DNA of 44,479 nucleotides. Source: Thermococcus sp. (lineage in GTDB: Archaea > Methanobacteriota_B > Thermococci > Thermococcales > Thermococcaceae). The notes under the pieces are model-generated. The model had not been told where the DNA came from. It saw only the letters and a list, made by a program, of their open reading frames with translations, and ran no database searches. The position numbers and the translations under genes were made by a program. The stretch lies in NCBI RefSeq assembly GCF_027052235.1, contig NZ_JALUFF010000033.1:1-44479 (forward strand), written 5' to 3'. This document shows positions 41,172 to 42,916 of this stretch, in pieces (position 1 is the first letter of the stretch; every line of letters starts with the position of its first letter).

Positions 41172-42518
41172 TTACCCTATCTTCACCACGTGGCCGTTCC
41201 TCGAAACGAAGACGTCCTTGCCTATGAGGTAGCCCTCTTCTTCAGCGAGCTCCGCGTAGTGGGTCAGCATCCTGAAGTCGCCGTGGGCTGGGACGATGTT
41301 CTCGGGGTTGAGCATTCTCACCAGGTAGCGGTGGTCTTCCCTGCTCGCGTGACCGCTGACGTGCATGTCCTTTATCATCCTGACGCCCTTCATCCTGAGC
41401 TTTGTTTCAAGCTTGTAGCGCTGGGCGAGGTTTATGGGGTTGGGTATCGTTCCCGCGGAGAATACAACGGTGTCCCTCTCGCCGATGTCGTAGAGCTCGC
41501 CGTCGGCCATTCTCGTTAGAACAGCCCCGGGTTCACCCTGATGGCCGGTGACGATGAGAAGGTAGTTCTCCCTCGCTTGGCTGACCTCCTTGAGAACCTT
41601 CCTGACGGCGTTAGGGCTTCTAACGGCCCTCGCCCCCTTCATCTTTATGAGGCCGAGCTGTTTCGCTATTCCAGTGTACTTCGCGAGGGATCTGCCAACA
41701 AAAACCGCCTGCCTGCCCATCTCGTTCGCTATCCATATCAGCTCCTGAAGCCGGGCGATGTGGCTCGCGAAGGTCGTCGCAATAAGCCCAACCTCTTCCC
41801 TCCCCTCGTAGAGGAAAAAGTCCTCAAGGAGCATCTGGGCGACGCGCTCGCTGGGGGTCTTGGTTGGTTCAGCAACGCGCGTTGATTCCGCTATGAGCAC
41901 CTTAACGCCCTCCTTACCGAGCTCCTTTAACCTTTTGTAGTCAGGCCTCTCGCCGAGCGGGCTGTTGTTGTCGAACTTGAAGTCGCCGGTGTGGACAACT
42001 GCACCCTCTGGCGTGTGGACGACGACCATAGAAGCTTGGGGAATGGAGTGGGTCGAGCGGACGAACTCTATGGCCAAGTTCTCGCTCACCTGCACTATCT
42101 CGCCGTATTCGGTCTCGTACATCGGGTTCTTGACCTCAAAGTACTCCTCGCTCTTGACCTCGCTCTTGGCGAGCTTTACCGTGTAGGGTGTGCCGTAGAT
42201 CGGTACGTCCGGGTAGTGGGGGCCGAGCTTTCCAATCGCCCCAATGTGGTCGAGGTGGCCGTGGGTGAGGGTTATCGCGACAACCTTTCTGTTCTTACCG
42301 CCCTTCCAGAGGATTCTGTCGTCGGGGATTGCCCCGAGGCGCTGGAGCTCCTTGTCGGAGAACTTCTGGATGTTAGTGTCCTCGTGGATGAGAACCCGAT
42401 CGAGCATTATGCCCATGTCTATTATAACGACCTCTTCCCTTCCCCCGTCGGAGTAGCCCACTGCTGTCATGTTCTTACCTACTTCCTCGTAACCGCTAAT
42501 CGTGTAGATTTTTATCAT
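41172..42518 (-). CDS. rnj: Archaeal RNase J, beta-CASP 5'-3' exoribonuclease
   Basis: 448 aa. Metallo-beta-lactamase motifs THGHLDHIGAIGKLG (motif 2), HTGDFKFDNNS (motif 3), beta-CASP LIAESTRVAEP, GHASREDH and PAHGDFRM. Archaeal RNase J degrades RNA 5' to 3'. I choose ATG 42518 (MIKIYTISGYEEVGKN) because GGGAGG then lies at the 9-base spacing used elsewhere here; ATG 42524 two codons earlier is 3 bases from that site. The leader begins with a strong hairpin directly adjoining the ribosome binding site. Confidence 0.94.
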   Translation of the reverse strand: MIKIYTISGYEEVGKNMTAVGYSDGGREEVVIIDMGIMLDRVLIHEDTNIQKFSDKELQRLGAIPDDRILWKGGKNRKVVAITLTHGHLDHIGAIGKLGPHYPDVPIYGTPYTVKLAKSEVKSEEYFEVKNPMYETEYGEIVQVSENLAIEFVRSTHSIPQASMVVVHTPEGAVVHTGDFKFDNNSPLGERPDYKRLKELGKEGVKVLIAESTRVAEPTKTPSERVAQMLLEDFFLYEGREEVGLIATTFASHIARLQELIWIANEMGRQAVFVGRSLAKYTGIAKQLGLIKMKGARAVRSPNAVRKVLKEVSQARENYLLIVTGHQGEPGAVLTRMADGELYDIGERDTVVFSAGTIPNPINLAQRYKLETKLRMKGVRMIKDMHVSGHASREDHRYLVRMLNPENIVPAHGDFRMLTHYAELAEEEGYLIGKDVFVSRNGHVVKIG

Positions 42519-42527
42519 GCTCATCAG

Positions 42528-42561
42528 CCTCCCGCCCCAGGCCTCTCATGAGGCGTGGGGC
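42528..42561 (-). promoter_or_regulatory. Hairpin in the RNase J leader, abutting its ribosome binding site
   Basis: Minus-strand RNA GCCCCA-C-GCCTC-ATGA-GAGGC-C-TGGGGC (42561 to 42534) folds as 6 bp, a C-C mismatch and 5 bp with a 4-nt loop, then GGGAGG (42533-42528). The TATA at 42587-42597 predicts a start near 42566, so the hairpin would sit at the very 5' end. Confidence 0.65.
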
Positions 42562-42586
42562 TGCGTTGGCCCTACTTCTCGGGAGG

Positions 42587-42600
42587 GTTTAAAAAGGTGT
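42587..42600 (-). promoter_or_regulatory. RNase J promoter
   Basis: Minus strand ACACCTTTTTAAACC has TATA core CTTTTTAAA centred at about 42592; transcription start expected near 42566. Confidence 0.6.
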
Positions 42601-42607
42601 GCATTCA

Positions 42608-42916
42608 TTACTCCTTTCTTCCAAAATACCAAGATAGGGGTATTCCCATCAGCGATGCCACGATTAGACCCGCAGGCATCCACCAGATTCCGTTCCAGCC
42701 CATAAACCAAGTTCCATCAGCGTAGTAAGAGTAAACTGTCCCCACCAATGCACCCAATAGATAGAAGACGTTCCTTCGGGGAGTGGTTTTAAACTTCATG
42801 ATGATCGCTTCAATAAAGGATACCGCAACGGAAAGGGCCATCGTAAAGGGATTACAGGTGAGTGCAAAGCCCTCTATGAAGTCTGCAATGAGCCGGCCCC
42901 TTGATTCTTCCCCCAT
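42608..42916 (-). CDS. Small membrane protein, function unknown
   Basis: 102 aa with about three hydrophobic segments (FTMALSVAVSFIEAIIM, VFYLLGALVGTVYSYY, WWMPAGLIVASLMGIPL) and a Trp-rich stretch (TWFMGWNGIWW). ATG 42916 is only a few bases after the transcript start predicted from TATA CTTTTTAAAC (about 42943-42952), with no clear ribosome binding site, so it may be nearly leaderless. It separates fni from rnj. No family recognised. Confidence 0.7.
   Translation of the reverse strand: MGEESRGRLIADFIEGFALTCNPFTMALSVAVSFIEAIIMKFKTTPRRNVFYLLGALVGTVYSYYADGTWFMGWNGIWWMPAGLIVASLMGIPLSWYFGRKE

Follow-up and report, generated by a model that had tools for sequence, protein, structure and literature searches.

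The rnj mRNA of nearly all sequenced Thermococcus, Pyrococcus and their kin is predicted to start with a conserved hairpin. Because it occurs nowhere else in these genomes, it is a strong candidate for a switch or guard RNA that is missing from the catalogues. By the window we mean the whole stretch of DNA analysed, 44,479 nucleotides from Thermococcus sp. (contig NZ_JALUFF010000033.1). Our reading is that the hairpin is a 5'-end cis element dedicated to rnj which sets the amount of RNase J, with RNase J itself as the likeliest sensor, and we give this reading as a whole a probability of about 0.4. Its parts differ in strength. It is almost certain that the hairpin is a functional cis RNA element dedicated to rnj, an action on the stability or translation of the rnj mRNA is likely, and RNase J activity as the thing sensed is tentative.

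The gene lies on the minus strand at 41172..42518. Its product scores 520.6 bits against TIGR00649 (cut-off 400) and carries the RNase J domains PF00753, PF22505 and PF07521 (Lactamase_B, RNase J beta-CASP and RMMBL), all above their cut-offs; judged by sequence it is an RNase J of the beta-CASP metallo-beta-lactamases. The start codon conserved across relatives is the ATG at 42518-42516, which opens a run of MIKIYTI-like residues and stands at a normal spacing of 9 nt from the Shine-Dalgarno (SD) sequence. The ATG at 42524, which would give a longer open reading frame (ORF), was rejected, as it leaves an SD spacing of only 3 nt and relatives share 42518. In the window a type 2 IPP isomerase and a 102-aa ORF lie upstream of rnj and a polyprenyl synthase downstream. 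The 102-aa ORF (42608-42916, minus strand) is probably a membrane protein and has no Pfam or NCBIfam match; 9 of 86 genomes have it inserted between the isomerase and rnj, at 51-100% identity.

The minus strand at 42561-42534 reads GCCCCACGCCUCAUGAGAGGCCUGGGGC and forms a 28-nt hairpin, identified by its fold, by covariation and by a covariance-model match. It consists of 6 base pairs, a C·C mismatch (42555/42540), 5 base pairs and an AUGA loop, 11 base pairs in total. The first base of the Shine-Dalgarno sequence GGGAGG (42528..42533, minus strand) adjoins it, and a GGAGG-like site follows the hairpin in relatives too. The earlier note had described an 11-bp hairpin ending exactly at GGGAGG; the hairpin is real and does abut this sequence, its stem however is split by the C·C mismatch. 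Read on the minus strand from 42604, the layout is ATGCACACC-TTTTTAAA (42595-42588)-CCC...CC-A42567 ACGCA-GCCCCA-C-GCCUC-AUGA-GAGGC-C-UGGGGC (42534)-GGGAGG (42533-42528)-CUGAUGAGC-AUG (42518).

The folding energy of the 28-nt hairpin is -21.3 kcal/mol (z -4.7), and none of 200 shuffled sequences was as stable; the whole 52-nt leader folds with a z of -3.1, and in the predicted fold the SD sequence lies outside the main stem. A fold of the plus strand was discarded as misleading, because rnj is encoded on the minus strand. In genome G024, which we take to be T. kodakarensis, the rnj leader ranked fourth by folding energy among 369 leaders (400 kb scanned), and no other leader had an 11-bp stem with 9 G-C pairs. 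Melting was computed with a nearest-neighbour model at 1 M salt, so that the values are indicative only: 97-100 °C for form A stems (defined below) with the mismatch against about 109 °C if the mismatch were paired, and 80 and 92 °C for the two hairpins of form E. The value of about 100 °C for the mismatched stem is near the growth temperature of these organisms, which bears on the earlier note's idea that breathing of the stem would tune ribosome access.

Upstream of the hairpin, the promoter block ATGCACACCTTTTTAAACC (42586..42604, minus strand) contains the TATA box TTTTTAAA at 42588-42595. Among 94 genomes, 46 hold this 19-mer, each in a single copy that lies at rnj. Within the block, a factor may bind the TGCACA that precedes the TATA box. 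The transcription start was predicted as the first purine after a pyrimidine at 20-22 nt past the TATA box, which gives A42567 in the window, preceded by a C and the 21st base past the box. The distance from the TATA end to the predicted start was 20-22 nt in 85 genomes. The stem begins 6 nt past A42567, in agreement with the expectation that the transcript begins a few bases before the hairpin, and in most form A leaders an ACGC/GCGU pairing extends the closure to one or two bases from the predicted 5' end. A start far upstream, which would have counted against a 5'-terminal position, is so far not indicated, the promoter standing at a fixed distance in 83 genomes; added cotranscription from upstream genes is possible.

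The predicted 5' UTRs measure 48-58 nt for form A, 49-53 nt for form B and 80-89 nt for form E. The rnj tag in T. kodakarensis is presumably TK1469. This tag is not mentioned in the main text of the T. kodakarensis paper (PMC4247193), from which a median 5' UTR of 16 nt has been published; the published median for T. onnurineus is 12 nt (PMC5316973).

Of 94 Thermococcaceae genomes, 87 were found to have an RNase J, among them every one of the 74 that are more complete; the leader could be read in 86. A structured leader was found at the same place in 83 of these 86, so the possibility that close relatives would have no hairpin does not so far hold. The leaders take three forms. Form A, with a plain 1x1 mismatch in the stem, occurs in 56 genomes, including the window and the Pyrococcus-type leaders, and most of its members have 15-18 nt between stem end and start codon. 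Form B, found in 13 genomes, has a stem that reads as U·U plus one bulged G. Form E, found in 14, is longer and has two hairpins: the first starts near the predicted transcription start and the second carries C·C at nucleotide 41-42. Two genomes (L152 and L166) have degenerate hairpins, and the hairpin is absent from one (L142, genome G008), a member of the Pyrococcus group with an intact rnj behind a different promoter, that is, a natural deletion. Form B leaders (L140, L146-L151 and L154) hold a tiny frame, AUG CUC (G/A)UG AGA GCU UAG, inside the hairpin; this is probably a coincidence of the conserved RYGC core.

The 5' base of the mismatch, 42555 in the window, is C13 of the predicted transcript, and the mismatch base is nucleotide 13 in 69 of 69 leaders (56 of form A and 13 of form B). 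When the leaders were scanned for stems with a single 1x1 mismatch at most 100 nt from the start codon, 69 genomes gave C·C (55), U·U (13) or U·C (one); 14 of the 69 have form E. One further leader, L109, was missed by the scan because its lower stem is shorter; it was read by eye as U·U. Among the 70 genomes with a plain 1x1 mismatch there are thus 55 C·C, 14 U·U and one U·C, with no purine and no Watson-Crick pair; the sole purine-containing scan match was a chance stem in L142, the genome that lacks the leader. The mismatch alternates between C·C and U·U, both sides changing together. Within form A, the 3' base (42540 in the window) changes with 42555 in four of five independent contrasts and the fifth shows the U·C intermediate (sign test, p 0.125, underpowered). 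Over all forms eight of nine switches are concerted (p 0.008), in a test that mixes architecture swaps with point changes.

Covariation, which the earlier note had named as a check, is clear for forms A and E, the forms that the counts cover. Across the 32 distinct hairpins of form A, 93% of cells are paired, and 22 cells are compensatory against 8.8 ± 2.1 in shuffles, none of 500 of which reached 22; slid registers gave no more than 3. Next to the mismatch, on its outer side, stands an A-U pair in 20 and a G-C pair in 12 of these 32 sequences, and the mismatch itself is never closed. The 11 distinct leaders of form E have 96% of their cells paired, 13 cells are compensated against 3.4 ± 1.4 in shuffles, and 8 of 19 pairs changed on both sides. 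U-G wobbles replace U-A or C-G in 11 of the 32 form A sequences; this is the pattern expected of minus-strand RNA, and neither RNA of the plus strand nor a palindrome in DNA would account for it. Any other mismatch would also weaken the stem, so the confinement to C·C, U·U or U·C suggests that the mismatch is recognised in addition to weakening it. The same mismatch type in architectures as unlike as A and E likewise argues for recognition by some factor, the reader being left unspecified.

The element was found at no other gene. The form A pattern has one copy per genome in 47 of 94 genomes, always before rnj; the 13 occurrences of the form B pattern are all at rnj; and a covariance model gave exactly one match in each of 55 genomes, every one at rnj. 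The window hairpin is the sole match in its genome (E 2.2e-6). A looser form E pattern also gave about 12 matches elsewhere than at rnj; the reversed control matched at least as often. One copy per genome led us to reject a regulon or a repeat element, and the single target, with no other copy in 94 genomes, makes the role gene-specific and hence most simply autogenous. The earlier note's expectation that a 5'-3' exonuclease has a hairpin at the 5' terminus of its mRNA is supported, with a TIGR00649 match for the gene and a hairpin that is conserved, covarying and unique to rnj.

The covariance model had no match outside Thermococcaceae among 115 genomes of the phylum, and by inspection the regions upstream of rnj in methanogens and DPANN held no similar hairpin; a deep ancestry of the leader was rejected on these grounds. 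Rfam release 15 has no family above the gathering threshold at the window site and nothing credible there at permissive thresholds, nor has it one at the rnj leader in 8 relatives spanning forms A, B and E. Elsewhere in the window Rfam matches the eL15-Euryarchaeota ribosomal leader RF03144 (32253-32296, minus strand) and the C/D-box sRNA sR58 RF01308 (16700-16754, minus strand). RF03144 is, like the rnj leader, an archaeal cis-regulatory leader before a single gene, but the rnj leader differs from it in sequence and structure. A C/D-box sRNA reading of the rnj site, suggested by a box-C-like UGAUGA past the SD sequence, was rejected, the motif not being kept in relatives. Genome G004, which we take to be P. 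abyssi GE5, has rnj at about 881.8 kb, and on that identification none of 12 validated P. abyssi ncRNAs lies near it. A published P. abyssi ncRNA was rejected as the identity of the leader, as the coordinates disagree (PMC3124441). A description of an archaeal rnj leader was not found in the open literature; the primary papers on Thermococcales aRNase J lay outside this search, so novelty is unproven.

The leader follows rnj and not its neighbourhood. Directly upstream of rnj stands the isomerase in 44 genomes, the 102-aa ORF in 9 and other genes in Pyrococcus-type genomes, and the leader stays with rnj when the neighbour differs. On a tree of rnj DNA its form changes at least 9 times (about 9), for example with L151 (form B) beside L153 and L155 (form E). 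Since forms change among close relatives, leaders seem to be either replaced or swapped together with their promoters as cassettes, with a structured 5' end retained. In L151 the difference in leader form from L153/L155 goes along with different promoter flanks. L137 and L139 are also close by rnj sequence and differ in leader form; both are metagenome bins and could be chimeric. The persistence of the leader through changes of neighbour and about 9 changes of architecture implies that something keeps demanding a structured 5' end.

The earlier note had proposed that the hairpin shields the mRNA that carries it or serves as a sensor for autoregulation, and such a role is plausible. As the product of the gene attacks 5' ends, sensing by RNase J itself is the simplest proposal. 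In both P. abyssi and T. kodakarensis aRNase J degrades RNA as a 5'-3' exoribonuclease, and in P. abyssi it associates with a Ski2-like helicase (both as cited in PMC10470531). A structured 5' end would deny such an enzyme the single-stranded terminus it needs, and the pyrimidine·pyrimidine mismatch could be a built-in weak joint or a recognition mark; the computed melting of the mismatched stem, as compared with the paired one, would fit a weakened barrier. The most economical sensor would be RNase J, perhaps with its partner helicase ASH-Ski2. An excess of the enzyme would open or grip the leader, upon which the message would be degraded or the adjacent ribosome-binding site blocked, while the rnj message would survive when RNase J is busy elsewhere. 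A pure block lengthens the life of the message, and feedback therefore needs a further, putative opening step.

A close precedent is RNase E, which binds a hairpin in its own rne leader (reviewed in PMC3997798). As in the bacterial rne leader, a ribonuclease mRNA has a structured leader dedicated to its own gene (PMC3997798), but the rnj hairpin is only 28 nt, lies near the predicted transcription start and directly before the SD sequence, and belongs to an unrelated archaeal enzyme. Going by comparative sequence evidence, the structural half of RNase E-type control is present, namely a structured RNA under selection in the leader of the enzyme's own mRNA; the other half, an enzyme that binds or cleaves its own leader and lowers its own mRNA, is a candidate feedback by analogy and putative here. 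Counting against our proposal are L142, which has an intact rnj without the hairpin, and the degenerate hairpins of L152 and L166. Moreover, aRNase J is non-essential in T. barophilus (as cited in PMC10470531), so tight control may not be needed. It is doubtful whether the full picture applies, in which the leaders are a new RNA family, an archaeal autoregulatory ribonuclease leader through which RNase J senses its own spare activity by a calibrated 5' hairpin with a covarying nucleotide-13 mismatch in three exchangeable architectures.

A serious though rather improbable alternative is that the hairpin is a passive stabiliser, which holds the 5' end in double-stranded form and sets the spacing of the ribosome site, letting the rnj message persist amid abundant RNase J without any sensing. 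The stem within a few bases of the predicted start, the ACGC/GCGU closure in most form A leaders and the occurrence of three different structures at one place are what such a device would give, and 5' hairpins do stabilise Bacillus mRNAs against RNase J (reviewed in PMC3997798). The Bacillus stem-loops resemble the rnj hairpin in lying at or near a 5' end that faces a 5'-3' exonuclease of the same family, RNase J1 (PMC3997798); the rnj hairpin differs in sitting on the enzyme's own message and in its conserved pyrimidine·pyrimidine mismatch. For stabilisation any stable stem would suffice, yet conservation extends to the mismatch, to its position 13 and to parts of the arms, no leader closes the mismatch although pairing would be more stable, and the stem is used by no other gene in 94 genomes.

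It is unlikely that the reader is another RNA-binding protein (a ribosomal protein, Alba, Lsm or other) which represses translation from a site beside the ribosome site. A non-canonical pair that is conserved and fixed in place is typical of sites bound by proteins. The stem ends directly before the SD sequence in the window, most form A leaders have 15-18 nt from stem to start codon, and L7Ae represses its own archaeal mRNA in this manner (PMC5539422). The L7Ae leader is, like ours, an archaeal 5'-UTR structure near the SD sequence (PMC5539422), but it is built on a k-turn, whereas the rnj hairpin lacks one and has a candidate ligand only. By inspection there is no three-nucleotide bulge with tandem G·A pairs, form A having a 1x1 pyrimidine mismatch and form B one extra bulged base, and neither the k-turn families of Rfam nor any Rfam leader matches the rnj leader. 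One target per genome also speaks against such a protein.

An RNA thermometer, in which the mismatch would bring melting into the growth range and thereby couple ribosome access or decay to temperature, is very unlikely. The computed melting of form A with and without its mismatch agrees with it, but A·C or G·A would destabilise the stem too and only pyrimidine·pyrimidine is seen, the SD sequence lies outside the stem in the window and is not sequestered, and the two form E hairpins melt at very different computed values. Even less probable is that the site is a palindromic operator in DNA, bound by a transcription factor: it lies just downstream of the promoter, whose block is unique to rnj, but G-U wobbles are tolerated, like bases are opposed at the mismatch and switch together, form E is two different hairpins, and the genome holds no second site. 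A trans-acting small RNA or processed 5'-UTR RNA is the least probable of all, for although 5'-UTR-derived ncRNAs exist in P. abyssi (PMC3124441), no validated one lies near rnj, and the element is short and abuts the rnj SD sequence.

Little is known about the control of mRNA decay in archaea and of the dosage of their 5'-3' exonucleases. With a gene-specific, covarying rnj leader in hyperthermophiles that are genetically tractable (T. kodakarensis and T. barophilus), the question becomes directly testable, and the C·C/U·U mismatch is a defined RNA feature with which its reader can be sought.
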